Source: Phycisphaerae bacterium (lineage in GTDB: Bacteria; Planctomycetota; Phycisphaerae; UBA1845; PWPN01). From it: a stretch of DNA of 33,466 bases. The position numbers were made by a program, and so were the translations under genes. This document shows, piece by piece, positions 2,485 through 30,525 of the stretch. Positions within the stretch are counted from its first letter, which is position 1; the number at the start of each line of letters is the position of its first letter. The notes below the pieces were generated by a model. It was not told where the DNA came from, did not search any database, and saw nothing but the letters and a program-made list of their open reading frames with translations. The stretch lies in NCBI GenBank assembly GCA_018003015.1, contig JAGNEZ010000062.1, positions 1 through 33,466 on the forward strand, in the 5' to 3' direction.

Positions 2485-2558
2485 GGTCACGCTCCCGCTG
2501 CCGGAGTTGGACAGACCGGCAGTATAACAGGTACCGCGACCCAGGGCACGCCTGCCCA

Positions 2559-4897: not shown

Positions 4898-4929
4898 CGG
4901 CACGCTGCTTTCGGGTTGGTGACTCGCTC

Positions 4930-6294: not shown

Positions 6295-6308
6295 CGACGT
6301 TTCCTCCG

Positions 6309-7745
6309 CTAGAAAGTCATCTGCATTCTCAGGCCACATACCAAGGCCGTCTCTCGATCCTGGAAACCGCCGCCGGGGCGAACGATCACCTGCAGATCGG
6401 GACTGACGTGCAGCCAGGGCGTGACCTCGATGTTGTAGTAGGCTTCGACCCCCTGCTCGTCAGACGCGCTGAGGATCGCGGGCAGGTCGTTGCTGAGGTT
6501 CGCCAGGAAGTACCCGACACCGTAACTGTCCTTTGCGCGGGTCGGGATCAAACCCTTGCCGCCAAGTCCGAGGCTGTAGAACTGGTCGAAGGGGTTGGAC
6601 TCGCCGGTCGAGAAGCCGAAACGCCCGAAGAGGCCAAAGCCCTGCGCGGGGTCATCCGGCTTGGTGTACAGGTACTGGTCGAAGTTGTAGTACATCATCC
6701 AATCGTCCGGGCGGGTGTCGACCTCGAAACTCCTGGTTGCACCGGCCAGTCGGGCCAGCCGCATCAGAGGCCTGGATTTCGACAGGAACTGGCGAAACGC
6801 AATGGTGGGCAGGTTGATGCGGATGTCCTGGTCCAACAAGGCACGATCGCGCGAACTCCACGCCCAGCCGAACCGCTGGTGGCCCGTCTGACCAAACGGC
6901 TTGATCGTCAGTTCCCACTCCTGGCTTACTGAAAGCCAATCGCGCCCGTGAAACGTGGTGTTGAACCCGGTGCGCGTGGCCGCACCGTTGGGATCGTTGT
7001 CGCTGATCCCGCTGGTGACCTTCAGCCACTTGGTCGGCATGTAAACGGCCGCGGCGGTCATGGCCGTGTAGGGCGCGTAGAGCCCCAACATCGGGTTGAG
7101 TCTGAACCCGGTGTTCATGAACTGGGTCGTCTCGTTGGCGGCGAACTCGGTCATGTCGCCAAGTCCCAAGCCGTTGATCTTCCCCAAGACGACGACGAAC
7201 TGCTCTGAGAACGCCTGGGTAAGGTAGAACTCCGAGAGGGTGGTGAGTCCGCCGTCATCAGGAAGGGGCAGCAGAGCATCGAAATTCGGCGGGAGGACGG
7301 CCCCGGTCTTGCGCATGACGCTCTGGCCGAATTGCGTCTCACCGTGAAGCGTGAGGAGACCACCGGGCCAGAGATTCATCCGGGCCGAGTCCAGTTTCAG
7401 CGTGTAGTCCGCCGATCCGGCGTAGCGGAACCCGTTGTTCGTGTCCTTCCCGCCGTGAGCGTTGTCCTGCAGAATCTGCGTGGCACTCAACTCGAACAAG
7501 ACACCGTGTTCGGAAAGGTCCGCCCTCGCCCCACCCCAGTCGCCGGTCAGGTACTGGCGACGGGCCAAGTCGCCGGTGTAGTCCGGCAGTTGCTGGATGA
7601 TCGAGGGCATCGCGGCCTTGGCAGGGATCTCAGCGGCCTTCCCGCGCGATTCCGGCACCTTCCGGTCGGCCGGCTGAGTCGTCTGCCCCAAGACGCTACC
7701 GCTCAACCACGCGCACGCCGCCAACAGACAGATACGTTGAATCAT
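6309..7745 (-). CDS. OprB-type carbohydrate-selective porin
   Basis: A 478-residue outer-membrane protein. It has a cleavable signal (MIQRICLLAACAWL to VLGQ), then the OprB hallmark YLTGDWGGARADLSEHGV (about 62-79), then alternating beta-strand-like segments with many aromatic residues and a C-terminal Phe (MQMTF), typical of Bam-inserted barrels. Family members form pores for sugar uptake; the substrate here is unknown. The ATG at 7745 is chosen because GAGGAG lies 9 nt upstream and the signal peptide begins there, whereas a longer frame to 7826 adds an unrelated basic stretch. It is the first gene of the six-gene minus-strand cluster. Confidence 0.9.
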   Translation of the reverse strand: MIQRICLLAACAWLSGSVLGQTTQPADRKVPESRGKAAEIPAKAAMPSIIQQLPDYTGDLARRQYLTGDWGGARADLSEHGVLFELSATQILQDNAHGGKDTNNGFRYAGSADYTLKLDSARMNLWPGGLLTLHGETQFGQSVMRKTGAVLPPNFDALLPLPDDGGLTTLSEFYLTQAFSEQFVVVLGKINGLGLGDMTEFAANETTQFMNTGFRLNPMLGLYAPYTAMTAAAVYMPTKWLKVTSGISDNDPNGAATRTGFNTTFHGRDWLSVSQEWELTIKPFGQTGHQRFGWAWSSRDRALLDQDIRINLPTIAFRQFLSKSRPLMRLARLAGATRSFEVDTRPDDWMMYYNFDQYLYTKPDDPAQGFGLFGRFGFSTGESNPFDQFYSLGLGGKGLIPTRAKDSYGVGYFLANLSNDLPAILSASDEQGVEAYYNIEVTPWLHVSPDLQVIVRPGGGFQDRETALVCGLRMQMTF

Positions 7746-7861
7746 CACGGAGACTCCTCGGACAGAGAGGCCTTTCCGAACCCGCGCCTTGCACTGCCGT
7801 CCCATGTCGCCTTCCACGCCCCGCATGCTGAGACGGACGATTGCAACCCGCAGATCAGGAG

Positions 7862-14859: not shown

Positions 14860-15378
14860 TCAGGATTTACGTTTGGCGGACGGAGCCTGATCGAGAATCT
14901 TGCCAATCACCAGATCAAGGCGCTTACGACGAACATCCGGAGCAGCGGTGTTGTCGAGCTTCGCTTCGGCGCTGCCCGTCCAGATCATCTTTGAATTGCT
15001 GGGAGACGAGGCGACGATGTCCAGTCGCCCTTCCAGATACATCGGCTTCGTGAAGTCGTTCACGTCCGCGCGAGGGCGTTTCCTCGCCACATAGTCGATC
15101 CAGAAATCGGGTTTGCCATTCGCCGCGACCTTCTCAAGGCCTTTCTTCGCGAGGTGAGCGTCAACGACTTCCCGGATGAGGCGATCCGCATCAGGATTCT
15201 CCGGACGTCCCTCACCGGTGGTCCGTGAGGAGTCGGGGGCCCATGCATAGGAGTGCACCTCGTCCGCGAAGCGAACGCCGGGGCCATAAACGGAACTCAC
15301 ATTCACCCATTCGCTGCATCCGGCGGCCAGGATCATGACAGCCAGGAGCGCACCATGAACGATCCGTGTCTTCCCCAT
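14860..15378 (-). CDS. DUF4136-family lipoprotein
   Basis: A 172-residue lipoprotein with signal VMILAAGC (Cys about 21). The mature part has HSYAWAPDS, GLEKVAANGKPDFWIDYVAR and a C-terminal KRLDLVIGKILDQAP, matching DUF4136, a widespread periplasmic lipoprotein family of unknown function. In such proteins the final helix and the Asp-rich pattern are conserved. The start at 15378 has GGGAGG 7 nt upstream. It lies 121 nt before the pyruvate kinase start and is not obviously part of that unit. Confidence 0.82.
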   Translation of the reverse strand: MGKTRIVHGALLAVMILAAGCSEWVNVSSVYGPGVRFADEVHSYAWAPDSSRTTGEGRPENPDADRLIREVVDAHLAKKGLEKVAANGKPDFWIDYVARKRPRADVNDFTKPMYLEGRLDIVASSPSNSKMIWTGSAEAKLDNTAAPDVRRKRLDLVIGKILDQAPSAKRKS

Positions 15379-15830: not shown

Positions 15831-17246
15831 TCAGAACTCCACCTTATAGCGGTTGGTCAATTCGATCCCGATCTTCCCCATATCCGCTTTGACACCCTTG
15901 AAAATCTCTTCGGCCTGGTTGAGAGTCTTGGCTCGTTCCTCCCGAACGACCTTCGCACGTTCCTCCTCCGTTCCGGTCGCCCGGCCATGAATCTGCACCA
16001 TCCCTTCGGTCATGGCCCGGGCCGCGTCGTTCAGCCGAGCGCTCACCTCGACCGCGAACTTGGCCAAGTCCGGATCGACGTTGAGGATGGGCAACCGGCT
16101 GATCTCGTTCGCATCTCGGTTGATCCACGTGGCCACGTCGGAAAGCACCCCCCCTCGTCCGCCCCGGGCCTTCGTCTGTAGCTTGTCAACGATCTCCTTC
16201 ACCGTCTTGAAGTACTGCTGCGAGGCCGAGATCTTCGCTTCCCTCTGGTCTCCGCCCGGCTTGCCGGACGCCGCCTGGCCTACCCCGCTCGGGGCCGGCG
16301 GGTCCACGACGCTGATCAGGCGTCGGAGACTTTCGGTGGACAGCTTCCCCTCAAACGAAATCTGCTTTCCTCTGGCTGCAACCTGCCAGTCCTCGAAGTC
16401 GTCGACGAGGGCTCCGGACCGCGAAAGCACCTCGAGCAGAAGAGGCTTGGCCACGCTGGCCAGAACGGCGACATCACCGTCGAAATCCACAACGCCCTTG
16501 CCGGTCGCCTCGGCCCCGATCGCTACGCGGAGAGTCACGCCCCGGATACCGCCGAGAGCCTGGCTGATCGCGTCGAAATCTTGAGTCTTGCCTTCCAGCG
16601 ATGCGAACGTCTCGGTCGCAAGTCGCCGGCGAACCTTGCTTGCACTGGTAACATCCTGCAGGTCCATGGCCATCAGAACAGGGGTGTCGGTCCCGGCCGC
16701 GAGGGCCGCGTTGCTCAGGTAGGCCGACAGCCGGTTACCCGACTCCCCGGATTTCCTGGTGGCCCATCGCGATGCAAACTGCCGGTTGGCCGGCCAGACG
16801 GCACCGAACATCGACGGGCTGACCTGAACGAAGTAGGCATCGACCCGCGACCAGGCCGCTGGGATCGAACCGAACTTGTCGAGGTAACCCCCTTCGTCAC
16901 TGACGATGGAGTCCAGAGACAGCGGCTTAGCCACGTCCATCACCGACACCGCCCAGACCGTCCCCATATTGCCGGGCTCGATCTGTGCCGCCATCACCAT
17001 GCGACTCGTATCCGGCGGAATAGCCAACGGCTTTCGTTCATAGGCGCTTGCCACCTTAGCCTTCCATCCTTCACGAACACCGAGCGGGCTGTTGATCATG
17101 CCGGCGACGTCAATCAGCACCAGCGCGTTCGCGTCGTTGGGCACCCGGCCAAGAAGACCCTTGAAGTCGGCCAAGGCCGGATTGCTCATTGACAGGGCAA
17201 CCACCAGACCAAGGAACGGAATCGGGTTCAAGCGCATCGCCACCAT
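15831..17246 (-). CDS. Secreted protein of unknown function
   Basis: A 471-residue protein with a signal peptide (MRLNPIPFLGLVVALSM to ALA) and then GLLGRVPNDANALVLIDVAG. This resembles the start of planctomycete exported proteins that I cannot assign to a named function. The remainder has alternating beta and helical stretches, and the last 90 residues are highly charged and helical (GTEEERAKVVREERAKTL), possibly a coiled coil. No catalytic motif is visible. The ATG at 17246 is chosen for AAGGAG 7 nt upstream; another ATG lies three codons later. The frame is open far upstream, but that part is the antisense/other-frame shadow of the neighbouring symporter remnant. Confidence 0.72.
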   Translation of the reverse strand: MVAMRLNPIPFLGLVVALSMSNPALADFKGLLGRVPNDANALVLIDVAGMINSPLGVREGWKAKVASAYERKPLAIPPDTSRMVMAAQIEPGNMGTVWAVSVMDVAKPLSLDSIVSDEGGYLDKFGSIPAAWSRVDAYFVQVSPSMFGAVWPANRQFASRWATRKSGESGNRLSAYLSNAALAAGTDTPVLMAMDLQDVTSASKVRRRLATETFASLEGKTQDFDAISQALGGIRGVTLRVAIGAEATGKGVVDFDGDVAVLASVAKPLLLEVLSRSGALVDDFEDWQVAARGKQISFEGKLSTESLRRLISVVDPPAPSGVGQAASGKPGGDQREAKISASQQYFKTVKEIVDKLQTKARGGRGGVLSDVATWINRDANEISRLPILNVDPDLAKFAVEVSARLNDAARAMTEGMVQIHGRATGTEEERAKVVREERAKTLNQAEEIFKGVKADMGKIGIELTNRYKVEF

Positions 17247-17293
17247 GGTAGTTCTCCTTGTGTACGGATTCGCCAGAATGGATCGCCCATCGA

Positions 17294-17956
17294 TCATGCC
17301 ACTGCAGCTCCCGAGATGGCCGTCTTGGACATGCCCCAGCGCCCCCATATTACGGCAACCAGGGCCATGATGACAGTCTGGAACAGACCATAAGCCAGCG
17401 CGGCAGTGACGGCCGGCGTACCGGCGAAGCTGCTGGTCGCGACAACCAGGCCGACACCGACGTTTCGCACCGATGTCGCCAGAACCATAGCCGTGCGGGC
17501 GTCCCTGCAAGCCCCGCCCAGCAGCCAGCCTGCAATCATCGTTGATACGAGCAGAGCAGTCATCCCCACGAAAGCGAACGGGCGAATGTCCGTCAGCGTC
17601 CTGTACTGGGCGATAACAACGAGGACCAACGTCGCCAGGTTGAGAACCGTGCAAAGCCGGTTCGCCGGCTTGTGCAGCTTCATCGCCAGCGCCGGCCGCC
17701 ATTATCGCACCAGTAGCCCGGCAAGCAGCGGAATCAGTTGCGTCATCAGGAGTGTGCCGGTCATCTTAAAGACATTGACCCGCAGCGAGTCGTTTCCCAC
17801 CATCACGGGCAGCAGGACACTCAGAAGGATCGGTGCCAGAATCGCGGATGACCCCGCGAGGATCACCATGAAGCCCAGCGCGACCCCCATGTTGCCCTTG
17901 GCCAGGCCGGTAAAGGGCGGGCCATACGGCGAACTTGCGAAAGGTATACACGATGC
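17294..17956 (-). pseudogene. Broken bile-acid:sodium symporter (SBF)-like membrane protein
   Basis: One frame carries SBF-type membrane sequence on both sides of an in-frame TAA at 17702-17704. Before it comes PPFTGLAKGNMGVALGF through LLMTQLIPLLAGLLVR; after it come MKLHKPANRLCTVLNL, AMVLATSVRNVGVGLVV and further helices. Members read straight through at this point, so the stop is a nonsense change. Another in-frame stop (17957-17959) sits just ahead of the recognisable region, and the N-terminal third of the family is missing. It is therefore a truncated, interrupted gene. Only a fragment starting at the ATG at 17683 could be translated. Sequencing error could explain one stop but not the missing N-terminus. 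Confidence 0.7.
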
Positions 17957-18386: not shown

Positions 18387-19190
18387 ATGAGCGAGGAAAA
18401 AGCTGAACGTAGCAAACTGAGCCGCAAGGAGTATGAGCGCGAACTCCATAAGCTCCAGGTCGAGCTCTGCATACTCCAGGACTGGGTAAAGCAGGAGGGT
18501 CTTCGGATCGTCGTCGTCTTCGAAGGACGCGACGCCGCCGGCAAGGGCGGACTGATCCGCAGACTTGTGGAACGTGTCAGCCCGCGAGTCTTCCGCGTCG
18601 TCGCTCTGCCGGCCCCCACCGAACGCGAGAAGAGCCAACTCTACATCCAGCGTTACATCCAGCACTTCCCCGCCGCCGGAGAGGTTGTGATCTTCGACCG
18701 AAGCTGGTACAACAGGGCCGGCGTCGAACATGTGATGGGCTTCTGCTCCAGGGAAGAGCACAAGCGTTTCCTTGAGCTCTGCCCCGTGATCGAGCATCAT
18801 TTCGTCGAGGGCGGCGTTCGACTGATCAAGTACTGGCTCGAGGTCACAAACGAAGAACAGAAGCGGCGGTTCGCGGCCCGCATCGAAGATCCGCTACGGC
18901 AATGGAAGCTTAGTACCATGGACCTGCCTTCCCGAGAGCGATGGTACGAGTACTCGCGGGCTCGCGATCAGATGCTGGAGGCGACGGACACGGAATGGGC
19001 GCCCTGGTACATCGTTCCTTCGGAAGACAAGCGCCGCGCGCGACTGAACTGCATCGCCCACTTTCTGAGCCTCATCCCGCACGAGAAAGTGAAACGCAAG
19101 ACCATCGAGCTTCCCAAGCGGAACAAGGACAATGCCTACGACGACGTGGCGTCTATCGCCGGGCGGCGCTTCATCGAAGAGCGCTATTGA
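18387..19190 (+). CDS. ppk2: Polyphosphate kinase 2 (PPK2 family)
   Basis: A 267-residue single-domain PPK2. It shows Walker A GRDAAGKGG (47-55), Walker B with catalytic Asp IFDRSWYNRAGVE (102-114), and the lid region with RFAARIEDPLRQWKLS. The C-terminal WYIVPSEDKRRARLNC is also typical. The family transfers phosphate between polyphosphate and nucleoside mono- or diphosphates; whether this one prefers NDP or NMP cannot be read from the sequence by eye. The ATG at 18387 has an AAAGGG-like site, and the open frame upstream lacks family similarity. It lies 11 nt before the RND adaptor gene and is probably co-transcribed with it. Confidence 0.93.
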   Translation: MSEEKAERSKLSRKEYERELHKLQVELCILQDWVKQEGLRIVVVFEGRDAAGKGGLIRRLVERVSPRVFRVVALPAPTEREKSQLYIQRYIQHFPAAGEVVIFDRSWYNRAGVEHVMGFCSREEHKRFLELCPVIEHHFVEGGVRLIKYWLEVTNEEQKRRFAARIEDPLRQWKLSTMDLPSRERWYEYSRARDQMLEATDTEWAPWYIVPSEDKRRARLNCIAHFLSLIPHEKVKRKTIELPKRNKDNAYDDVASIAGRRFIEERY

Positions 19191-19201
19191 GGAGACCGAA
19201 C

Positions 19202-20440
19202 ATGCGTCTATCTAGCGGTATTGGCTACACTCTGATGATCCTGGCCGTGGCAAGCGGCTGTGACGGCGACAAGACCGGCCAGCAGGCGGCCGCACCCCCG
19301 CCACCCGAGGTGACGATCAGCCAGGTCGTCAGCCGGGACGTCACCGACTTCGGGGAGTTTACCGGCCGGACGAGCGCGACCGTGTCGGTGGACATCCGTG
19401 CCCGGGTCAGCGGCTATCTGGACGAGATTACCTTCAAGGACGGCCAGGAGGTCAAGAAGGGAGACGTCCTGTTCCAGATTGACCCTCGCCCGTTCAAGGC
19501 CGCCCTCGAGAACGCCCTCGGACAGAAGGCCCAGTGGGAGGCCAAGCTCGCCCGCGCGAAGGCGGATGTCCAACGCTATGAGAAGTTGGTGCCTACTGGC
19601 GCGGCCACGCCGCAGGATCTCGACAAGGCCAAGGCTGACATGGGTGAGGCCACCGCCGCCATCCAGTCCGCCGAAGCAACCATCGACACCGCCAAATTGA
19701 ACCTGGAGTTCGCCAGGATTGTAGCACCTGCCAACGGTCAGATTTCGAGCTCGGACATCTCCACGGGCAACCTGGTTCTCGCCGACAACGACAAGCTGAC
19801 CACGATCGTCTCGCTGGATCCGATGTTCGTCAACTTCGATGTCAACGAGCGAGATCTCCTGCGCCTTCGAGAATCCTCACGAGCGTCACGCCCGCCCGGT
19901 GAAGCCCTGCCCGATATTGGAACGCTGAAAGTGCCGGTTTTCGTTGGTTTGGCGAACGAGCAAGGCTATCCGCACCAGGGCGTCATCGACTTCGCCGACA
20001 ACCAGGTTGATCCCACTACCGGCACGATCAGCGCCCGCGGTACCTTCGACAACTCCAAGCGTATCTTCAAGCCGGGTCTGTTCACTCGGGTGCGGGTCCC
20101 GATCGGCGATCCTTACAAGGCCTTGCTGGTGGCGGAACGAGCGATTGCGATCGATCAGGGCACCAAGCACGTGTTGACCGTGGATGACAAAAACACCGTC
20201 CAGCAACGGTTCATCGAGCCGGGCCCCCTCCAGGATGACGGGCTGCGGGTGATCAAGTCCGGCGTGCAGGCGGGCGACTGGGTCGTCGTCAACGGCCTGC
20301 AGCGGGCTCGCCCCGGCAAACCAGTGAATCCGCAACGTGCGGAGATGCCCACCCGAGCAACCAGGGCCAACACTCCCGCCGGAAGCTCGTCCTCTACCAA
20401 CGCGGCCCAAAGCAAACCTGCGACACCCACGAGCCACTGA
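19202..20440 (+). CDS. RND efflux periplasmic adaptor (membrane fusion protein) lipoprotein
   Basis: A 412-residue lipoprotein (signal ending VASGC). Visible features are the biotinyl-lipoyl half-motifs VSVDIRARVSGYLDEI and FARIVAPANGQISSSD, the helical hairpin between them (about 100-165), the beta-barrel region with VNFDVNERDLL and a C-terminal membrane-proximal domain with LLVAERAI. This is the AcrA/MexA organisation. It links the inner-membrane pump to the outer-membrane channel. GGAG lies 8 nt before the ATG, and a Ser/Thr/Ala/Pro-rich tail of about 30 residues follows the conserved part. It sits 13 nt before the pump gene. Confidence 0.95.
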   Translation: MRLSSGIGYTLMILAVASGCDGDKTGQQAAAPPPPEVTISQVVSRDVTDFGEFTGRTSATVSVDIRARVSGYLDEITFKDGQEVKKGDVLFQIDPRPFKAALENALGQKAQWEAKLARAKADVQRYEKLVPTGAATPQDLDKAKADMGEATAAIQSAEATIDTAKLNLEFARIVAPANGQISSSDISTGNLVLADNDKLTTIVSLDPMFVNFDVNERDLLRLRESSRASRPPGEALPDIGTLKVPVFVGLANEQGYPHQGVIDFADNQVDPTTGTISARGTFDNSKRIFKPGLFTRVRVPIGDPYKALLVAERAIAIDQGTKHVLTVDDKNTVQQRFIEPGPLQDDGLRVIKSGVQAGDWVVVNGLQRARPGKPVNPQRAEMPTRATRANTPAGSSSSTNAAQSKPATPTSH

Positions 20441-20453
20441 CGGAGACTGAACG

Positions 20454-23400
20454 ATGTTCTCACGCTTCTTCATCGATCGTCCGATCTTCGCCACGGTGCT
20501 GTCGATCGTCATCCTGATCGTCGGCGGCGTGGCCCTGCGATCGCTACCCATCGCCCAGTACCCCGAGGTCGTGCCGCCGGTCATCCAGATCTCGGCCATA
20601 TACCCGGGGGCCAGCGCCAAGGTCGTCGCCGATACCGTGGCCACGCCGATCGAGCAGGAAGTCAACGGCGTGGAGAACATGCTCTACATGTTCTCCAAGT
20701 CCACCAACGACGGCCAGATGTACCTCGACGTGACCTTCAACGTCGGAACGGACCTGAACATGGCCCAGGTCCTCACCCAGAACCGAGTGTCGATCGCCGA
20801 GGCCAAGCTGCCCGAGGAGGTCAAACGCCAGGGCGTCACGACCAAGAAGAAGTCGCCGGCGATTCTCCTGTGCGTCAATCTGGTCTCTCCCGACAAACGG
20901 TACGACCAGCTTTACCTGAGCAACTACGCCACGATCCAGGTCAAGGACGCACTCGCCCGCCTCCCGGGCGTCGGCGACGTCGCCTTCCTGGGAGCACGCG
21001 ACTACAGCATGCGTATCTGGCTGGATCCCGAGAAGCTCGCGTCGCGCAACATGACCGCCGGCGACGTCACCAAAGCCTTGAAGGAACAGAACGTGCAGGT
21101 GGCCGCCGGCCGGCTGGGCCAGACCCCTGCCCCCCCCGGTCAGGAGTCCCAGCTCACGGTGAACACGCTGGGCCGGCTGCTCGAACCGGAGCAGTTCGCG
21201 GACGTGATCGTCAAGACCGGTTCGGACGGCCAGATTACCCGAGTCCGTGACGTCGGCCGCACAGAATTGGGCGCCAAGAACTACGACGTCGATACGTACC
21301 TGGACGGCCAAGCCTGCATCACCATGGCGGTGTACCAGTTGCCCGGCTCCAACGCTCTGGCGACGGCGGAGGCCGTGCGCTCCCGAATGGAGGAGTTGAA
21401 AGCCCGATTCCCCGCGGGACTCGACTATCGAATCGTGTACGACACGACCGTGTTCGTCTCCGAGTCGATCCACGAAGTCTACAAGACGCTGTTCGAGGCC
21501 TTCATCCTCGTGTTCATCGTCGTGCTCATCTTCCTCCAAAGCTGGCGGGCGACGATCGTCCCGATGGTCGCCGTGCCGGTTTCGTTGATCGGTACGTTCG
21601 CGGTCATGGCCGGCCTGGGCTTCTCGCTCAACAACCTCTCGCTCTTTGGCCTGGTGCTCGCGATCGGTATCGTGGTCGACGACGCTATCGTCGTGGTGGA
21701 AAATGTCGAGCGTAACATGGCCGCGGGCATGAACCCGCCCGATGCGGCCCGAAAAGCCATGGACGAGGTCTCCGGGGCACTGATCGCCATCGCTCTGGTG
21801 CTTAGCTCGGTCTTCGTTCCGACAGCCTTCATCACCGGCATCAGCGGCGAGTTCTATCGCCAGTTCGCCTTGACCATCGCCACCTCGACGATCATCTCCG
21901 CCTTCAACTCGTTGACCCTGAGCCCGGCCTTGTGCGCACTGATCCTCAAGTCCCACGGTCAGAGCGAGCACGGCCATGCCCACTCCGAGGCTCTCCCCCG
22001 CCTGGGCCTCGTCGTTCTCGTCGGTCTGGCGGCGTATAACCTGCTCACGCCCGTGCTGGCGCCTGTCTTCGGCGTCCAGTTACCAGCCGCACACGGTGAG
22101 GAAGCCGCCGCGGCAGCTCACGGGACACCCGCGATGCTGTGGGTTGCACGGGCCGTTGCGTTCGCCATTGGTGCCGTTGCCGGCTGGCTGCTCAGCGGGG
22201 TGGTCAACCATATCCTGGGCCTCTTCTTCCAGGGCTTCAACTGGGTCTTCGACCGCGCCATCGGCGGCTACGGCATGATCGTCAGCGTACTCCTGCGCGT
22301 CAGCCTCATCGTCCTGATTGCATACGGCGGGCTGATGTACCTGACCGCCAAGGGTTTCGCGACGGTTCCGGTGGGCTTCATCCCCGAACAGGACAAGGGC
22401 TACCTGGTCGTCAACGCCCAGCTACCCGACGGGGCGAGCCTGGAACGCTCCCAGGACGTCCAGGTCAAGCTGGTCGATATGGTCTCCAAGACGCCGGGCG
22501 TGGCCCACACCATCTCCGTCCCCGGCTACTCGATCCTGATGAGCACGAACATATCCAACGTCGGCGGCATGTTCGTCATTCTGGAACCTTTCGAGAAACG
22601 CAAGGAGGATCCGGACAAGTCCAGTTTTGCCATCGCGCGGCGATTGCGAGGCGAGTTCCAGCACGTTCAGGAGGCTGTGGTCAGCGTGTTCGGTGCGCCG
22701 CCGGTCGACGGCCTCGGCAACACCGGCGGCTTCAAGATGCAGCTGCAGGACCGGGCGGATGCGGGCCTGACCGCACTGCAGGAGAACGTCGACAACATGG
22801 TAACGGCCGGAAACGGCCAGCCGGGTCTGGTCGGTCTGTTCAGCAGTTTCCGGGCCAATCAGCCTCAGCTCTACGTGGACCTGGATCGTACCCAGGCCAA
22901 GTCGCTCGGTGTATCTCTGAATGACGCTTTCGAGACTCTGCAGACCTACCTGGGATCGACCTACGTCAACGACTTCACCCGCTTCGGACGCAACTGGCAG
23001 GTCAACGTCCAGGCCGACGCCAAGTTCCGGCTCGAGCCCGAGGACATCGGGCAGCTCAAGGTCAGGAACGCGTCCGGGAAAATGGTCCCCCTGGGTTCTC
23101 TGCTGTCCGTCCGCGATATCAGTGGCCCGGCCATCGTGAACCACTACAACATGTATCCGTCCGCCGAAGTCAGCGGCGGGACCGCCCCGGGAGTCAGCTC
23201 GGGCCAGGGCATCTCCATGATGGAGGGTGTCGCTGGCAACCAACTGCCTTCCAGCATGGGCTTCGAATGGACCGAACTGGCCCTGCAACAGAGACTCGCG
23301 GGCAACACGGCCATCTTCGTGTTCATCCTCGGCGCCATCTTCGTTTTCCTGGTGCTTTCGGCCCAGTACGAGAGCTGGTCGCTGCCGCTGGCCATCATCC

Positions 23401-23876
23401 TCATCGTGCCGATGTGCCTCCTGGCCGCGATCACCGGAGTCTGGCTCATGAAGATGGACAACAACATCTTCACCCAGATCGGTCTGGTGGTGCTGATCGG
23501 CCTGGCGGCGAAAAACGCCATCCTCATTGTCGAGTTCGCGAAGCAACTTCAGGATGAGGGCCGCCCCCGCCGGGACGCGACCATCGAGGCGTCGAAGCTG
23601 CGCTTGCGGCCGATCCTCATGACCTCCTTCGCCTTCACGCTGGGCGTCGTGCCCTTGGCGCTGGCCGCCGGCGCCGGCGCGGAAATGCGCGTCGCGCTGG
23701 GAGTGGCCGTGTTCAGCGGCATGGTCGGCGTGACGGCTTTCGGGATCTTCTTTACACCCGTATTCTATTCCGTCGTGCGATGGTTGACTGAAGGAAAGGC
23801 CTCGTCGAAGCCATCGGGGAGCGCGGCCGCGTCCGGCGCTTCACCGTCCACACAGAAAACCCTGGGAGGACACTGA
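20454..23876 (+). CDS. HAE-1 type RND efflux pump with extra His-rich membrane insertion
   Basis: A 1140-residue AcrB-like proton-driven exporter of the inner membrane. The N-terminus FFIDRPIFATVLSIVI, the proton-relay pair in GIVVDDAIVVVENVERN and the TM10 motif LAAKNAILIVEF are all present. It is about 90 residues longer than AcrB. The extra part (about residues 500-585) follows TM6 at ALCALILK; it has the His-rich stretch SHGQSEHGHAHSE, then two predicted membrane helices flanking a second His/Glu/Ala-rich loop. The C-terminus has a short Ser/Ala tail. GGAG precedes the ATG, and the stop overlaps the next start (TGATG), so translation of the outer-membrane channel is coupled. Substrates unknown. 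Confidence 0.96.
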   Translation: MFSRFFIDRPIFATVLSIVILIVGGVALRSLPIAQYPEVVPPVIQISAIYPGASAKVVADTVATPIEQEVNGVENMLYMFSKSTNDGQMYLDVTFNVGTDLNMAQVLTQNRVSIAEAKLPEEVKRQGVTTKKKSPAILLCVNLVSPDKRYDQLYLSNYATIQVKDALARLPGVGDVAFLGARDYSMRIWLDPEKLASRNMTAGDVTKALKEQNVQVAAGRLGQTPAPPGQESQLTVNTLGRLLEPEQFADVIVKTGSDGQITRVRDVGRTELGAKNYDVDTYLDGQACITMAVYQLPGSNALATAEAVRSRMEELKARFPAGLDYRIVYDTTVFVSESIHEVYKTLFEAFILVFIVVLIFLQSWRATIVPMVAVPVSLIGTFAVMAGLGFSLNNLSLFGLVLAIGIVVDDAIVVVENVERNMAAGMNPPDAARKAMDEVSGALIAIALVLSSVFVPTAFITGISGEFYRQFALTIATSTIISAFNSLTLSPALCALILKSHGQSEHGHAHSEALPRLGLVVLVGLAAYNLLTPVLAPVFGVQLPAAHGEEAAAAAHGTPAMLWVARAVAFAIGAVAGWLLSGVVNHILGLFFQGFNWVFDRAIGGYGMIVSVLLRVSLIVLIAYGGLMYLTAKGFATVPVGFIPEQDKGYLVVNAQLPDGASLERSQDVQVKLVDMVSKTPGVAHTISVPGYSILMSTNISNVGGMFVILEPFEKRKEDPDKSSFAIARRLRGEFQHVQEAVVSVFGAPPVDGLGNTGGFKMQLQDRADAGLTALQENVDNMVTAGNGQPGLVGLFSSFRANQPQLYVDLDRTQAKSLGVSLNDAFETLQTYLGSTYVNDFTRFGRNWQVNVQADAKFRLEPEDIGQLKVRNASGKMVPLGSLLSVRDISGPAIVNHYNMYPSAEVSGGTAPGVSSGQGISMMEGVAGNQLPSSMGFEWTELALQQRLAGNTAIFVFILGAIFVFLVLSAQYESWSLPLAIILIVPMCLLAAITGVWLMKMDNNIFTQIGLVVLIGLAAKNAILIVEFAKQLQDEGRPRRDATIEASKLRLRPILMTSFAFTLGVVPLALAAGAGAEMRVALGVAVFSGMVGVTAFGIFFTPVFYSVVRWLTEGKASSKPSGSAAASGASPSTQKTLGGH

Positions 23877-25498
23877 TGCCACGTTACACTCGAGAGTACC
23901 GATGCGGGTGCGCCCTGAGCATCCCCCTGTTGACGACCCTGATGATCGCGGGATGCCGGGTCGGCCCGAACTACACGCAACCGTCGCCGCGCCTCCAGCA
24001 GGAATGGATGGATGCAGGGCAGCCGGGCATACAGCGTGGACCGGCCGAACTCGCCAAATGGTGGGAAGGATTCAACGATCCCGTCCTCAACGACCTCGTG
24101 ACCCGCGCGTATCAGAACAGCCCACCGCTGCTGGCCGCGGCCGTGCGCGTATTGCAGGCCCAGGCAGCACGGGGAATCGCGGTTGGCTATCTCTTCCCTC
24201 AACGTCAGGAGGCAACCGGGGGATACTCCTGGAACCAGGCCAGCGAGAACAGCGGCGCGGTGGAGCAACACCAGAGCAAGTGGGCGTCGAGGATAAGCAC
24301 GCTCCGAGCCCTCCAGGCTCCGCTGGGTACCGCGGTCCGAAACGCGGTGGGTGATCCGAGCATCGACCCGTCTTATTCCAATTGGGCAGTCACCGGCCTT
24401 TCCGTCGGATGGGAGCTCGACATCTGGAGTCGCTTCCGTCACGGAATCGAGGCAGCCGACGCCGCCGTCCTGGCCTCGGTGGCAACTTATGACGATGTCC
24501 TGGTCAGCCTGATCGCCGAGGTAGCCACGAACTACGTCCAGGTCCGCACCCTGGAAGAGCAGTTGGATATCGTCCGCCAGAACTGCCAGATCCAGAAGGA
24601 CAGCCTGGCCATCGTGCAACAGCGGCGCGAGGGTGGGACGGCCACCGAGCTAGATGTTGCACAAGCTCAAACGCTGCTTCATGACACCGAGGCCCAGATT
24701 CCCGCAACCGAGGCGAGCATTCGGCAAACGCGAGTCGCCTTGTGTGTGCTCCTGGGCATGCCGCCGCAGGACATCACCCAGTTGCTCGGCGAGAAGCATG
24801 CGATCCCCGCACCGCCGGAGTCCATCGCCGTGAGTGTCCCGGCCGAACTCCTGCGACGTCGGCCCGACATTCGACGCGCCGAGCGTCAGCTCGCAGCCCA
24901 GAACGCATACATCGGTATCGCCTTCGCGGACTTCTATCCGAGCTTCTCTCTCGCCGGCGACATCGGACTCTCCGCCGAGCATTTCGAGGACCTGTGGCGA
25001 GGCAACAGCTTCCAGGCCTTTGCCGGCCCCTCGTTCCGCTGGGCGGTTCTGAACTACGGGCGAATCGAAAACAACGTTCGGGTTCAGGACGCGGCATTCC
25101 AGGCCGCCATCAGCGACTACGAGGGACTGGTCCTTCGGGCCCAGGGGGAGGTGGAGAGCGCCATCGCCGGCCTTGTGGGTGCTCAGCATCAGATCGCGCC
25201 TCTGACCGGTAGCACCGACGCGGCGTCACGCGCCGTCAACGTCGCGACGCAGCAGTACAAAGGCGGCATCGCCGACTATATCCGCGTTTTGGTTGCCCAG
25301 CAGAATCTGATCACCGAGCAGTCTCGGTTGATCTCAACTCGCGGTTCCGCCGCACAGAACATGATCACGCTCTATCGCGCGTTGGGCGGCGGTTGGGAAC
25401 TCCGCCAGGGCAACGATCTGGTACCGACCGAGATCAAGGACCAGATGCGCAAACGCACGAATTGGGGCGCAATGATCGACGCCGATCGCGTTCCATGA
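23876..25498 (+). CDS. RND efflux outer-membrane channel lipoprotein (OprM/NodT type)
   Basis: A 540-residue outer-membrane factor with lipobox LMIAGC and the typical N-terminus VGPNYTQPS. Helical repeats of the family are seen: LVTRAYQNSPPLLAAAVRV in the first half, then RRRPDIRRAERQLAAQNAYIG, FADFYPSFSLAGDIG, and in the second half AEVESAIAGL-type helices and TQQYKGGIADYIRVL. It is longer than usual because of an insertion around residues 120-160 (QHQSKWASRISTLRALQAPL). GGGAGG lies just before the ATG, inside the pump gene. The last gene of the tripartite efflux set. Confidence 0.95.
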   Translation: MPRYTREYRCGCALSIPLLTTLMIAGCRVGPNYTQPSPRLQQEWMDAGQPGIQRGPAELAKWWEGFNDPVLNDLVTRAYQNSPPLLAAAVRVLQAQAARGIAVGYLFPQRQEATGGYSWNQASENSGAVEQHQSKWASRISTLRALQAPLGTAVRNAVGDPSIDPSYSNWAVTGLSVGWELDIWSRFRHGIEAADAAVLASVATYDDVLVSLIAEVATNYVQVRTLEEQLDIVRQNCQIQKDSLAIVQQRREGGTATELDVAQAQTLLHDTEAQIPATEASIRQTRVALCVLLGMPPQDITQLLGEKHAIPAPPESIAVSVPAELLRRRPDIRRAERQLAAQNAYIGIAFADFYPSFSLAGDIGLSAEHFEDLWRGNSFQAFAGPSFRWAVLNYGRIENNVRVQDAAFQAAISDYEGLVLRAQGEVESAIAGLVGAQHQIAPLTGSTDAASRAVNVATQQYKGGIADYIRVLVAQQNLITEQSRLISTRGSAAQNMITLYRALGGGWELRQGNDLVPTEIKDQMRKRTNWGAMIDADRVP

Positions 25499-25643: not shown

Positions 25644-26429
25644 ATGATCCAGTTACGACGACTTCTCTCATATGGCGCGATGCTCGGCATCGCCTCCGCG
25701 GCCATGTCGGCAGGCTGCGCGACTCAGGAAACGCGAGTACGCGAGATCGATCCGCAGGCAGACCCGATCTTCAAGCAGATGTGCGAGACCCTCGACGCGG
25801 CGAAGACATTCTGCGTTCGCGTCCAGGCGACGATCGACAGGCCCGTGCAGACCGGGCAGCTCGCTCAGTTCCACCGCACCAGCATGATCACCGCGACCCG
25901 ACCCGACCGGCTGCGAGCGGAAACCGATTCCGACGACGGTAAGTGGTCCGTCTGGTACCGCGGCAGCGCGCTGACGATACTCGACAAGGACGCCAACGCC
26001 TATGCGACTGAAAAGGTGCCCGGCCGCATCGGCGAAATGCTCGACTACATGGTCGACAATTACGATCTGGTCATGCCGCTGGCCGACTTGCTGGCCGGCA
26101 AGACCTACGACTCGCTGCTGGCCGATGTCGACTCGGGAGACTACTTGGGCCTTCACGCCGTGGGTGAAACAGAGTGTCACCATCTCCTGTTTCGCCAGGA
26201 GAATATCGACTGGCAGATCTGGATCGACGCGGGCAAGGTGCCGCTTCCGCGAAAGCTGCTGATCACGTATACCCAGGAAGCCGACCAGCCGCAGTACATC
26301 GCCACGATGGACGATTGGGATCTCGCACCCGCCGTCTCGGAACAGACCTTCATCTTCGCCCCGCCTGCCGGGGCAGAGAGCGTTCCGATGTCGGAACTGG
26401 TTACTGATGGAGAAGGAGCACAGCCATGA
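25644..26429 (+). CDS. DUF2092-family lipoprotein
   Basis: A 261-residue lipoprotein (signal ending AMSAGC). The mature protein, with CETLDAAKTFCVRVQATIDR, DKDANAYATEKVPGRIGEML, VDSGDYLGLHAVGETECHHL and RKLLITYTQEADQPQYIATM, matches DUF2092, an envelope-associated family related in fold to LolA-like lipoprotein carriers. The biochemical role is unknown. It starts 145 nt after the efflux channel with a strong GGAGG, and its stop overlaps the next ATG by 4 nt. The next protein carries a second copy of the same domain at its C-terminus, so the two are a paralogous, coupled pair. Confidence 0.87.
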   Translation: MIQLRRLLSYGAMLGIASAAMSAGCATQETRVREIDPQADPIFKQMCETLDAAKTFCVRVQATIDRPVQTGQLAQFHRTSMITATRPDRLRAETDSDDGKWSVWYRGSALTILDKDANAYATEKVPGRIGEMLDYMVDNYDLVMPLADLLAGKTYDSLLADVDSGDYLGLHAVGETECHHLLFRQENIDWQIWIDAGKVPLPRKLLITYTQEADQPQYIATMDDWDLAPAVSEQTFIFAPPAGAESVPMSELVTDGEGAQP

Positions 26430-28327
26430 CCTGTCGCAAATGCCAGTGGCTCACGTTGTTCTGCATGTTCGCCATCGCACTCATGGGTGACGCCGCATAC
26501 GCCATCGGACGCGGCGGTGGGGGCGGGCGTGGCGGTGGAGGGGGATTCCGAGGGGGCGGAGGCGCGTCGCGAGGCGGCGGCGTCAGCCGCCCATCCTACT
26601 CCGGCAGCGGGGGCATCCGATACTCGTCACCGCGTCCCTCTACTCCATCCTATTCCCGCCCATCGACGCCCTCGTATTCACGGCCGTCGAATCCAACTTA
26701 TCGGCCCAGTACCGCTGGAGGGAGCGTAGCACCCAGGCCCAGTACGGCGGGGGGCAGCGTAGCACCCAGGCCCAACACCGCCGCAGGCAGCGTCGCGCCC
26801 GGGCCGGTCAGCGCAGGAGGTTCTGCAACCACGATCCGGCGGCCAACACCGGGAACATCGGGGGCAAGCTCGATCTCGCGACCCGTCAGCCCCGCTCAAC
26901 TACCTGCCAACAACGGCTCACTCATCCACCGCGGTTCGGTCACGACACCCAGCGGTGCCACAATCAGCGGCATCAAAGGACCCGGTGGCGGAGGCGCTGT
27001 CGGCGTCCAGGGGCCTGGCGGCGGGAGCGCCGGTGCGATCAAAGGCCCAGGCGGTGGCGTAACGGCAGGCGTTAGAGGGCCTGAGGGCGGTGCGGCCGGA
27101 GCCGTGAGAGGCCCCGGCGGCGGTGCGGCCGCCGGTGTCGTCGGCCCCGGAGGCGGAGCTGCCGGCGCCGTGAGAGGTCCAAACGGCGGTGCGGCCGCCG
27201 GCATCCGAGGGCCGGGTGGTGCGGCCGCGGGAGCCGTCCGGGGACCCTATGGCGGCGGCGCGGCCGGCGTCAGAGGACCTTACGGCGGCGCGGCCGGAGC
27301 GGCTTGGGGGCCAGGTGGCTACGGCGTCGCAGGCGTGCGAGGCCCGTACGGCGGACGCTACGTTACCAATCTCCCCGCAGGCGCCATTCACTACCCGTGG
27401 CATGGAAACGACTACTGGCACTCGGGCTGGGCCTGGTTCACCGCCGGCTGGGTCGCCGGAGCCGTCACTTACAGCGTGGCATATCCGCCGGTCGGGTATT
27501 ACTACCCCACCCTGCCGCCTCAATACGAGACTGTCGTGATCAACAACACGACCTACTACGAGTCGGACAACGTCTACTATCAGGATGGCGAGCAGGACGG
27601 CAAAAAGGGCTACGTCGTTGCGGAATCCCCCGTGCCTCCCGAGGAGTCAACCCAGGCCAAAGGGCCGAATCCCTTCGAAGTTCTCAAGGGAATGTGTGAT
27701 TACCTCGCCGGCCTCGACAAGTTCAGCATGGTCGCCAATACGACTCGCGATGAGATCCGCGTGTCCGGAGACAAGGTCCAGGTCTCGGAGCGGCGAGCCA
27801 TCTGCGTGAGCCGACCGGATAAAGTGGCCATCGAAGTCACTGGCGACAACGGCGCCAGGCGAATGGTCTACGACGGCAAGACGGTCTCGATGCTTGATCG
27901 CTCCAAGAGCCTCTACACTGTCGTCGAGGTTCCCAACACGATCGACGCCGCGCTGGACACCCTCGCCGTCAAGTACGAGGTCATCGTCCCGCTCGAGGAT
28001 CTGATGTACAAAGACCTCTACGACAGGGTATTGACCCGTATCACCGCGGGTGATTACCTCGGAACAGCGACCGTCAACGGCCTCAAGTGCCATCACCTGG
28101 CCTTCGTGGCCGGTGACTCGAATTGGGAGTTCTGGATCGAGGCCGAGGGCAAGCCGGTTCTTCGTAAGATCACCATCGACTACGGGCAAAACGAGACCCG
28201 ATCGCGATATACGGCGGATATCGCCGGCTGGAGTGGCTCACCCTCGTTCAACGAGAGAACGTTCGCGTTCAAGTTGCCGGAGAACGTCAAACGCTTCGAG
28301 ATGTCGCCCGTGAACAAAGGAGAGTAG
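26426..28327 (+). CDS. Large secreted Gly-rich repeat protein with C-terminal DUF2092 domain
   Basis: A 633-residue protein with a signal peptide (LTLFCMFAIALMGDAAYA). In order it has a Gly/Arg stretch (about 28-50), a Ser/Pro/Tyr/Arg segment with SYSRPST repeats (about 55-95), AGGSVAPRPST repeats, a long RGP-GG-AAGV repeat (about 182-311), a Tyr/Trp-rich middle (PPVGYYYPTLPPQYETVVI, TTYYESDNVYYQDG) reminiscent of DUF6515, and a DUF2092 domain from about 415 with CDYLAGLDKFSMVANTTRDE, RITAGDYLGTATVNGLKCHH and RKITIDYGQNETRSRYTADI. GGAG lies 10 nt before the ATG. Because it overlaps the first DUF2092 gene, both are probably made together. Function unknown: an extended, perhaps surface-exposed protein. 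Confidence 0.87.
   Translation: MTCRKCQWLTLFCMFAIALMGDAAYAIGRGGGGGRGGGGGFRGGGGASRGGGVSRPSYSGSGGIRYSSPRPSTPSYSRPSTPSYSRPSNPTYRPSTAGGSVAPRPSTAGGSVAPRPNTAAGSVAPGPVSAGGSATTIRRPTPGTSGASSISRPVSPAQLPANNGSLIHRGSVTTPSGATISGIKGPGGGGAVGVQGPGGGSAGAIKGPGGGVTAGVRGPEGGAAGAVRGPGGGAAAGVVGPGGGAAGAVRGPNGGAAAGIRGPGGAAAGAVRGPYGGGAAGVRGPYGGAAGAAWGPGGYGVAGVRGPYGGRYVTNLPAGAIHYPWHGNDYWHSGWAWFTAGWVAGAVTYSVAYPPVGYYYPTLPPQYETVVINNTTYYESDNVYYQDGEQDGKKGYVVAESPVPPEESTQAKGPNPFEVLKGMCDYLAGLDKFSMVANTTRDEIRVSGDKVQVSERRAICVSRPDKVAIEVTGDNGARRMVYDGKTVSMLDRSKSLYTVVEVPNTIDAALDTLAVKYEVIVPLEDLMYKDLYDRVLTRITAGDYLGTATVNGLKCHHLAFVAGDSNWEFWIEAEGKPVLRKITIDYGQNETRSRYTADIAGWSGSPSFNERTFAFKLPENVKRFEMSPVNKGE
26969..27360 (+). repeat. Tandem coding repeat, units of about 10-12 residues
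   Basis: About eleven imperfect units of the type [V/I][R/K]GP-x-GG-x-AAG-[V/A/I], alternating between 10- and 12-residue lengths, inside the Gly-rich protein. Codon usage varies between copies, so the repeat is better conserved as protein than as DNA. Confidence 0.8.
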
Positions 28328-28329
28328 TT

Positions 28330-29712
28330 TTGCAGATCAAGTTTCACGGCGCGGCCGGCGGCGAAGTCACCGGTTCGGCGTACCTCGTACAAACGAAGAA
28401 CGCACGGGTCCTGGTCGATGGTGGCATGTCCCAGGGTGGCCGCGCCGCCGCAGCCAAAAACCGTCCACCCGAGACCGCCCGTCGAGGCAAACTGGACGCA
28501 GTCGTTCTCACCCACGCTCATCTTGACCATACCGGGCGCCTGCCGCTGCTGGCCAAGCTGGGCTACACCGGCCCGGTCTACGCGACCCCGGCCACCAACC
28601 AATTGACCGCCCGGATCCTCCGCGATTCGGCGAGGCTGCAGCTCCAGGACGCCGAACGCGACAACCGGAAGCGCGAACGCGCCGGCGAACCGCTCTACAC
28701 GCCCGAGCACGCCGAGGCGATCATCCCGCGACTCAAGGAGGTCCCCTATCAGAAACCGGTGACCGTCGCGCCGGGCATACGCGCGTGCTGGGCCGAGGCG
28801 GGCCACATGCTCGGCTCCGCCAGCATCCAGCTGCTTGTCGAGGAGGACGGTCGCACCAAGAACGTCGTATTCTCGGGAGACCTCGGGTCCAAGGGCGCAC
28901 CCATTCTGCGTGACTACGAGCCTTTCCAGCAGGCAGACAAGGTGGTCATGGAATCGCCCTACGGCGACCATGACCACCGGCCGTTCCGCGAAACGGTGGA
29001 GGAGTTCGTCGGGATCGTGAAGCATGCTGTCGAGAACGACGGCAAGGTGCTGGTGCCCACTTTCGCCGTCGGGCGCGCCCAACTGCTCACTCTGCTGATG
29101 AGTTGGATGTTCCGAAAGGGCAAGGTCAAGCCCTTCCCGGTGTTCCTCGACAGCCCGATGGCGATCGAGGCGACGCGGATCTACACCCGCCACGTCGAGC
29201 TGTTCGACGACGACATGCGAGCCTGCATGCGCGAAGGCCTGGTACGCGACGACCTCAAGACCATGAAAGCTACTGAGTCGGCCGACGACTCCAAGGCGGT
29301 CAACGGCGTCAAGGGGCCCTGCCTGATCATGGCCGGTGCCGGCATGTGCAACGCGGGACGCATCCTGCACCACCTGCGACAGAATCTCTGGAAACCCGAG
29401 ACCCACGTCATCATCGTGGGTTATCAGGCACGGGGCTCGCTGGGACGTCTGCTGGTCGAGGGCGAGCAATTCGTGGGTATTCACGGCGAGAAGATCGCCG
29501 TGCGGGCCCAGATCCACACGCTGGGCGGATTCAGCGCCCATGCCGGCCAGACCGACCTGCTGAGCTGGTTCAGCGCCATCGCCCCGTCAAAGCCGCGTGT
29601 GATCGTGGCTCACGGCGAAGACGGGCCGCGCAAGACCCTGGCCAAACTCATTCAGCAGCGACACGGCCTCAAACCGACCATGCCCGCGATTGGTGATGTC
29701 ATCGAACTCTGA
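28330..29712 (+). CDS. Beta-CASP metallo-beta-lactamase-fold hydrolase (probable ribonuclease)
   Basis: A 460-residue protein of the CPSF73/YSH1-like bacterial group. The N-terminal metallo-lactamase domain has FHGAAGGEVTGSAYLV, THAHLDHTG, AGHMLGSAS and SGDLG; the beta-CASP insert has VPTFAVGRAQ and LIMAGAGMCNAGRILHHL; the final part has GGFSAHAGQTDLL and IVAHGEDGPRKTL. The metal ligands are present. Family members process or degrade RNA; the substrate here is unknown. The start is a TTG at 28330 with GGAG upstream, 2 nt after the previous stop; no ATG or GTG lies nearby that keeps the conserved N-terminus. Probably translationally coupled. Confidence 0.93.
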   Translation: MQIKFHGAAGGEVTGSAYLVQTKNARVLVDGGMSQGGRAAAAKNRPPETARRGKLDAVVLTHAHLDHTGRLPLLAKLGYTGPVYATPATNQLTARILRDSARLQLQDAERDNRKRERAGEPLYTPEHAEAIIPRLKEVPYQKPVTVAPGIRACWAEAGHMLGSASIQLLVEEDGRTKNVVFSGDLGSKGAPILRDYEPFQQADKVVMESPYGDHDHRPFRETVEEFVGIVKHAVENDGKVLVPTFAVGRAQLLTLLMSWMFRKGKVKPFPVFLDSPMAIEATRIYTRHVELFDDDMRACMREGLVRDDLKTMKATESADDSKAVNGVKGPCLIMAGAGMCNAGRILHHLRQNLWKPETHVIIVGYQARGSLGRLLVEGEQFVGIHGEKIAVRAQIHTLGGFSAHAGQTDLLSWFSAIAPSKPRVIVAHGEDGPRKTLAKLIQQRHGLKPTMPAIGDVIEL

Positions 29713-29730: not shown

Positions 29731-30525
29731 ATGGCGAAGCGACAGACCATCGATCAATGGGAACGCAGTTGGCAGAAGTACTGGGCCAAGGCCGGTACGA
29801 CCTACGAGTTGCCCCCCGAGCGCGCAGAAGAACGTAACTTCCTCATGCAGACGCGCACGCCTGCGGCGGAGAAAGCCCGCCTGCGACGCATTCAGGCCGA
29901 GTTCAAACGCGGATTCGGCCGGTTGCACAAGCTCGGCCCGGCGGTCACCGTCTTCGGCTCGGCTCGCTTCAACGACGGCCATCGCTACTACAAGATGGCC
30001 GTCGACGTCGGTCAGGAGCTGGCCAAGGCCGGCTTCGCGGTCCTGACCGGAGGCGGCCCCGGCATTATGGAAGCGGCGAACCGCGGCTCTCACGAGGCCG
30101 GCGGCACCTCGATCGGCTTGAACATCATCCTGCCGTTCGAACAGGAGCCGAACCCGTACGTGGACGAGAGTATCGAGTTCCACTACTTCTTCGTCCGCAA
30201 AGTGGTGCTGGTGAAATATTCCTGCGCATTCGTGATCATGCCCGGCGGTTTGGGGACGCTCGACGAGATGTACGAGGCCGGAACTCTCATCCAGTGCCAC
30301 AAGATCGGCCCCTTCCCGGTGATCGGTATGGGCAGGAGCTTCTGGCAACCCCTGAAGCCGTTCACACGGCACCAGATCCGGGCCGGCGCGGTCGGCAAGG
30401 AGGAACTGGGCTTCGTGCGCGTAACCGATTCGCCGCAGGAGGCCGTCGATCTCATCGTGCGCAGCCAGCCGCCGGCCCTGCGCGCCCGGCTCAAACCGAT
30501 AGCGTCCGGCAAGAACCGCAAATGA
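29731..30525 (+). CDS. LOG-family (TIGR00730) protein
   Basis: A 264-residue protein with a Rossmann-like fold. The signature motifs are GGGPGIMEAANRG and PGGLGTLDEMYEA, as in LONELY GUY phosphoribohydrolases and related nucleotide-binding proteins. Family enzymes remove ribose 5-phosphate from nucleoside monophosphates; many bacterial members have other or unknown roles. The N-terminal 60 residues (WERSWQKYWAKAGTTYEL) are an extra charged segment before the conserved VTVFGSAR. AGGAG lies a few nt before the ATG, and it follows the beta-CASP gene by 18 nt. Confidence 0.9.
   Translation: MAKRQTIDQWERSWQKYWAKAGTTYELPPERAEERNFLMQTRTPAAEKARLRRIQAEFKRGFGRLHKLGPAVTVFGSARFNDGHRYYKMAVDVGQELAKAGFAVLTGGGPGIMEAANRGSHEAGGTSIGLNIILPFEQEPNPYVDESIEFHYFFVRKVVLVKYSCAFVIMPGGLGTLDEMYEAGTLIQCHKIGPFPVIGMGRSFWQPLKPFTRHQIRAGAVGKEELGFVRVTDSPQEAVDLIVRSQPPALRARLKPIASGKNRK

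Follow-up and report, generated by a model that had tools for sequence, protein, structure and literature searches.

A recurring DUF2092/DUF6515 gene pair of Phycisphaerae with two predicted LolA-fold domains

Introduction

Why would two overlapping genes carry the same protein domain, the second behind a long Gly-rich repeat? The question is raised by a stretch of 33,466 nt from a Phycisphaerae bacterium of the Planctomycetota, probably uncultured (GenBank assembly GCA_018003015.1, contig JAGNEZ010000062.1, positions 1 to 33,466 of the forward strand), hereafter the window. It encodes a short protein with a DUF2092 domain, followed by a long protein in which several repeats precede a second DUF2092 domain. 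A preliminary description made from the sequence proposed that the first protein is anchored as a lipoprotein and that the second extends outward, the two together carrying lipid-like ligands or building a surface layer. Our analysis indicates that the pair is a recurring unit found in many Phycisphaerae, and structure predictions place both DUF2092 domains in the LolA-fold superfamily. We tentatively propose that the pair serves as a carrier module for lipids or lipoproteins.

Results

The two open reading frames were recovered exactly as given in the preliminary description, with an overlap of four bases (ATGA). Both proteins match DUF2092 (PF09865) over nearly its full length, at 224.2 bits (E = 1.6e-66) for the short protein and 201.5 bits (E = 1.3e-59) for the long one, relative to a Pfam cut-off of 21.2 bits. 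In a single BLASTP comparison the two domains are 31% identical across 229 residues (E = 5e-39), which indicates that they are paralogous; the contrary possibility, named in that description, can be set aside. After DUF2092, 10 residues remain in the long protein (623/633) and 13 in the short one (248/261). An NCBIfam search returned nothing usable. Sequence searches of the PDB yielded three matches for an alignment of short proteins (A3), all of them designed proteins aligning to the N-terminal region, and a non-significant match for alignment A4 (9lc0, E = 0.33). The long protein has a further domain in its Tyr-rich segment: this segment exists as described, but it is not an unassigned stretch, since it overlaps the known Pfam family DUF6515. 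The DUF6515 match is partial (profile positions 84-176 of 179; 32.9 bits, E = 7.5e-8, cut-off 24.9). The features of the pair and of its surroundings are listed in Table 1.

Table 1. Features of the gene pair and its neighbours in the window (aa, amino acid positions in the respective protein)
Feature	Position	Strand	Basis
Short gene, 261 aa, DUF2092; probable lipoprotein (Cys25 ends signal helix, SAGC)	25644..26429	+	
DUF2092 of short protein (LolA fold predicted), aa 39-248	25758..26387	+	
Long gene, 633 aa; ATG start within the stop of the short gene	26426..28327	+	
Signal peptide, aa 1-26, probable cleavage AYA/IG	26426..26503	+	Judged by eye
RGGG tract, aa 29-52	26510..26581	+	
SGGIRYS, aa 61-67, variant of [GA][STA][IVLMF]R[YNHF]	26606..26626	+	
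Ser/Pro/Arg/Thr-rich repeats (SYSRP, GGSVAPRPSTA)	26630..26920	+	
12 units of 11-residue repeat GPxGG(A/G)A(A/G)(G/A)(V/I)R, aa 185-316	26978..27373	+	
DUF6515 (PF20125), aa 302-399, predicted two four-stranded meanders	27329..27622	+	Pfam, structure model
Second DUF2092 (long protein), aa 418-623, predicted LolA fold	27677..28294	+	
Tripartite RND exporter operon, directly upstream of pair	18941..25498	+	Pfam
HlyD/CusB-type adaptor	18941..20440	+	
AcrB-type pump	20454..23876	+	
Outer-membrane factor	23876..25498	+	
Beta-CASP metallo-hydrolase, downstream of pair	28330..29712	+	
LOG-type protein, downstream of pair	29731..30525	+	
DUF4136 protein	14860..15378	-	Pfam

The pair is not confined to this locus. 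A second copy of the whole pair is present in the same genome on contig C27, with long proteins 91% and short proteins 88% identical to those of the window. In a first set of 61 genomes (the window genome and 60 relatives), 30 have DUF2092 and 13 have DUF6515, and all 15 DUF6515 matches adjoin DUF2092 or share a reading frame with it. The two are in frame in nine of these 13 genomes (11 genes), whereas in the other four (G031, G039, G052 and G057) the short gene is followed by DUF6515 as a gene of its own. Among 18 pair loci measured, the short gene and its partner overlap by four bases in 10 and are at most 31 bases apart in 17. Genes at the loci of relatives were picked with a crude heuristic. 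A second set, sampled evenly from the class (298 genomes, some of them shared with the first set), gave DUF6515 in 17 genomes, 16 of which also present DUF2092 at E<=1e-20, a threshold reached in only 26 of the 298. The two families are adjacent by coordinates in 15 of the 17, the exceptions being G714 (other contig) and G737 (no DUF2092); this co-occurrence has a Fisher p of 7e-19, computed on genomes that are kin and thus not independent. Close spacing and recurrence across genomes bear out the suggestion that the two genes belong together as a unit. We reject the view that the pairing arose by chance or is peculiar to this locus, given the duplication of the pair as a unit within the genome and its recurrence across many genomes.

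At the wider level of the phylum, a sample of 392 genomes presented DUF6515 in nine, including the window genome; five of the other eight carry DUF2092, in four cases adjacent. Among 117 genomes of the class of a Desulfuromonadales genome, DUF6515 was found in 19, three of which have DUF2092 (two adjacent), the search for DUF2092 having covered all 19 DUF6515-positive genomes and 20 of the 98 negative ones. These counts indicate that the link between the two families is tight in Phycisphaerae and looser outside.

Both DUF2092 domains were modelled with AlphaFold2, using alignments of 26 sequences for the short protein and 13 for residues 311-633 of the long one, and the models reached mean predicted local distance difference test scores of 90.1 and 85.3, respectively. 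The best match of both was LolA (4mxt), with Z = 16.5, a root-mean-square deviation (rmsd) of 2.9 and 178 aligned residues for the short model, and Z = 16.4, rmsd 3.1 and 178 aligned residues for the C-terminal model of the long protein. The best Foldseek E-values were 1.2e-11 (short) and 4.7e-10 (long). RseB, MucB, LppX and LprG followed at Z of about 11-15 (LppX at 12.7 and LprG at 11.6 for the short model), and identity to LolA/LolB in the fold alignments was about 10-15%. Judged by these models, both domains belong to the LolA-fold superfamily, which is characterized by an unclosed beta-barrel with a helical lid. The models agree with a published homology study that placed DUF2092 in LolA and described the hydrophobic character of the cavity as conserved (PMC4520260). 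The profile of LolA proper (PF03548) had no match at E<=0.001 in the window genome, the pair genes included, nor in 20 relatives, and it was found in 6 of 14 control genomes including E. coli.

We then consider how the long protein arose. In a tree of 48 DUF2092 domains (16 fused and 32 separate), the 16 fused domains group together; a single separate gene, from a cyanobacterium, falls among them with weak support. The fused or separate label changes twice on this tree, compared to 13.6 changes in shuffles, and the simplest reading is that a single fusion event probably took place. Eleven separate genes from contigs that also bear a fused gene form one clade (support 99/97). In each half of the tree the window copy is sister to the C27 copy, so the two genes were duplicated together. 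The unfused order, a DUF2092 gene followed by an RGGG-type DUF6515 gene, is found in Deltaproteobacteria/Desulfuromonadales (L055, L056 and L058). The long protein is a fusion particular to its lineage; its basis is a DUF2092/DUF6515 pair that exists unfused elsewhere, to which a second DUF2092 was added.

The proposal that the first protein is a lipoprotein stands in part. A Gly-Cys closes the signal helix in all 11 short proteins of the clade that includes the window's, which suggests that the short protein is probably a lipoprotein; a strict lipobox, however, is present in only three of the 11, and the SAGC of the window does not fit it. Start codons were taken as the first possible ones, so that some N-termini are probably too long (e.g., L038, L041 and L058). 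Separately, a near-invariant Cys (C178), which lies beside His residues and precedes the DWQIWI segment, is conserved in short DUF2092 proteins (aa 178-193, alignment A3).

The long protein consists, in order, of a signal peptide, an RGGG tract, a GGIRY motif, Ser/Pro/Arg repeats, GPxG units, DUF6515 and DUF2092. SYSRP-type and GGSVAPRP-type repeats span residues 69-165. The GPxG units begin at residues 185 to 306 and all 11 successive spacings are of exactly 11 residues; the consensus of 63 units from fused proteins is G-P-x-G-G-A/G-A-A/G-G/A-V/I-R. The Gly-rich, SYSRP-type and RGPxGG repeats of the preliminary description are therefore real, and they include the RGGG tract and twelve GPxG units. 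The repeat is also not peculiar to the window: at least four 11-residue spacings were found in 8 of the 16 fused proteins (window, L042, L034, L035, L037, L038, L041 and L105), and the other eight have few or none. Copy number differs even between otherwise close long proteins (window and C27). To judge from its sequence, the repeat region may form a flexible or extended stalk. The DUF6515 segment beyond it was modelled jointly with DUF2092, and the lists of PDB matches were filled by the LolA domain.

The motif [GA][STA][IVLMF]R[YNHF] is frequent in the partners linked to DUF2092, mostly as GS(I/V)R(Y/N/H) and often soon after RGGG. It occurs 33 times in 31 linked proteins, with 1.6 occurrences expected from shuffles, and 22 of the 31 have at least one. 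Of 18 DUF6515 proteins that have no DUF2092 next to them, none contains it (0.56 expected). The long protein of the window reads GGIRY and fails the strict pattern. The sample omits the genes that follow the short gene in L048, L053, L054, L057 and L059, in which no DUF6515 was seen, and in L065, L066 and L090, which were not extracted. It was also not blind, as L043, L110 and L113 were added once SxRY-type motifs had been noticed in them. Because the 31 proteins are related and three were added post hoc, the count is descriptive and not a proof. In these three loci, a small low-complexity gene with SxRY-type motifs follows the short DUF2092 gene (L110 2172-2708, L113 2174-2734 and L043 10034-10777) and is perhaps a reduced partner. 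Another variant is found in L044 (2604-3683), whose partner combines DUF6515 with a domain that matches Pfam YscW (E = 1.6e-25).

The pair of the window directly follows an operon for a tripartite resistance-nodulation-division (RND) exporter. An RND gene lies within 6 kb of the pair in four of eight readable fused-pair loci (window, G010, G016 and G047), a count that omits G002 and G036, where the contig ends, as well as the fused loci in G605, G662 and G446. With a chance expectation of roughly 0.029 per locus, this corresponds to P = 4.6e-5, or to P = 8e-4 for three of seven when the related window and G010 loci are counted once (G010 and G002 belong to the family of the window). A universal RND partnership is ruled out by the fact that the pump is present at only half of the readable loci.

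Other neighbours recur as well. Beta-CASP and LOG genes also follow the pair in L034 and lie near it in L037, and LOG is found in L038 too. Acetate kinase genes are located nearby in the window and L038, PPK2 in L037 and L110, and DUF3141 with PTA in L038. We take these neighbours (beta-CASP, LOG, PPK2, acetate kinase and DUF3141) to be genes of energy limitation or stress. L036 and L041 likewise have DUF4136 genes close to the pair. An open reading frame at 15831-17702 (-) has no significant Pfam match (best E = 0.035), and in L037 and L038 its relatives immediately precede the short gene. Further away, a 773-aa open reading frame (8535-10856, -) joins a cyclic-nucleotide-binding domain, acetate kinase and PTAC phosphate propanoyltransferase, and is possibly a regulated kinase plus transferase in one chain. 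Finally, the minus strand at 1405-7826 encodes in a row a T2SSE-type ATPase, a DUF900 hydrolase, an Lnb_N-domain protein, an open reading frame without Pfam match and an OprB porin.

Discussion

Our results suggest a possible function for the pair, namely an envelope or periplasmic carrier module for lipids or lipoproteins that is based on the LolA fold; we assign this interpretation a probability of about 0.45. The short protein would be a LolA-type lipoprotein anchored in a membrane, in a position comparable to that of LolB, LprG or LppX. The long protein would be secreted, and its second LolA-type domain would end a long Gly/Pro/Ser-rich flexible region plus DUF6515, which would act as a spacer for that domain or link it to a different layer of the envelope. 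A hydrophobic ligand, either a lipid or a lipoprotein's acyl chains, would pass between the two LolA-type domains, and in some genomes this hand-over may be in step with the neighbouring RND exporter.

Several observations weigh against this interpretation. The predicted LolA fold fits the lipid-like ligands of the preliminary description, but a common fold is by itself not evidence of any ligand. Most short proteins outside the 11-member clade are without a good lipobox and many are without such a Cys. No RND gene is found within 6 kb of the pair at C27, G022, G029 and G041, RND genes are common in these genomes, and two of the four positive loci (window and G010) have the same pump type and pair. 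DUF6515 is present without DUF2092 in 16 of 19 Desulfuromonadia genomes, which indicates that it has other jobs. In addition, neither family was detected at the thresholds used in G001, of the genus of the window, or in G018, of the genus of G022; the module is thus dispensable.

The long protein could instead be a surface or periplasmic matrix that its LolA-type domains merely hold to the anchored short protein. Its low-complexity repeat makes up about half of the chain and keeps a strict 11-residue register; DUF6515 of Desulfuromonadia without DUF2092 is often followed by a putatively SH3-like segment, and L043, L110 and L113, with no DUF6515 beside the short gene, have a low-complexity gene with SxRY-type motifs next to it. 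Yet the repeat is absent or nearly so in half of the fused proteins, which retain both folded domains, and an anchor would not need two LolA-type domains, so that we hold this alternative to be doubtful. We give still less weight to a trans-periplasm relay, in which an anchored LolA-type lipoprotein would deliver acyl ligands to a second LolA-type domain on an extendable stalk of 11-residue repeats reaching the outer layer, with the SxRY-type motif as a docking signal common to the partner proteins. Such a relay, if true, would amount to a tethered LolA-LolB hand-over whose carrier never diffuses freely.

A role in signalling is also conceivable, given that RseB and MucB are good fold matches (Z about 12-15) and that some loci are near genes associated with stress or energy limitation: the LolA-type domains would sense lipids or lipoproteins in the wrong place and report stress on the envelope. 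In RseB, however, a second domain follows the LolA-like one, whereas only the few residues noted above remain after DUF2092 in either protein, and no sigma or anti-sigma gene was noticed in the neighbourhoods scanned, whose genes were annotated in part. This makes a sensor very unlikely. It is equally improbable that the pair stands in for LolA and LolB as a general route of lipoprotein sorting where LolA is unrecognisable. A LolB-like anchor is probable for the short protein, and the PF03548 searches are consistent with such a replacement, but a divergent LolA may have slipped past the profile, and the distribution of DUF2092 across the class is too patchy for an essential route.

The carrier interpretation can be compared with known systems. 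In predicted fold, the pair is closest to LolA/LolB, with which it shares a probably anchored and an unanchored copy side by side; it differs in being undetected by PF03548, in its overlapping genes and patchy distribution, and in that Gly-rich repeats and DUF6515 precede its second copy. In gene arrangement, the closest analogue may be LprG or LppX with an exporter. LprG and LppX of mycobacteria are LolA-fold lipoproteins that work with an exporter, and the pair resembles them in predicted fold (Z about 11-13), in its probable lipoprotein form and in the exporter gene adjoining some loci. However, the exporter is an AcrB-type tripartite RND system in the window and not MmpL or Rv1410c, the pair has a second, fused protein, and no lipid is known for it. 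RseB and MucB share the fold of the LolA-like domain, and differ from the pair in their second C-terminal domain and in the anti-sigma gene that was not noticed near it. The DUF6515 proteins that stand alone in Desulfuromonadia and in other Planctomycetota share the DUF6515 segment, but mostly have no adjacent DUF2092, lack the RGGG tract and present the motif in 0 of 18 cases. Finally, the exporter of a LolA-like export cluster of Borrelia differs from that of the pair (PMC13078400).

The literature searched contained no description of a DUF2092/DUF6515 pair or fusion, in agreement with the earlier impression that the architecture had not been described. It was not found to name PF09865 or PF20125, and DUF2092 appeared seldom; DUF6515 was mentioned in an article that, by its title, concerns plant bZIP genes. 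Nothing was found on an 11-residue Gly-rich repeat in an outer-membrane context, nor on LprG, LppX, LolA and MmpL together, and among the articles listed for LolA/LolB in Planctomycetes, or for acetate kinase, PPK2, DUF3141 and beta-CASP, there was nothing on the module. Each fold and family is therefore known, and what is new is the pairing, the fusion and the putative repeat stalk.

Both DUF2092 and DUF6515 are families without known function. Their linkage and fusion tie the two together, and DUF6515 thereby gains the first functional context found for it, that of a partner to a LolA-type protein. Should the pair indeed be a carrier, it would represent a second architecture, a tethered one, by which lipids or lipoproteins move through the envelope of bacteria in which standard LolA is undetected.

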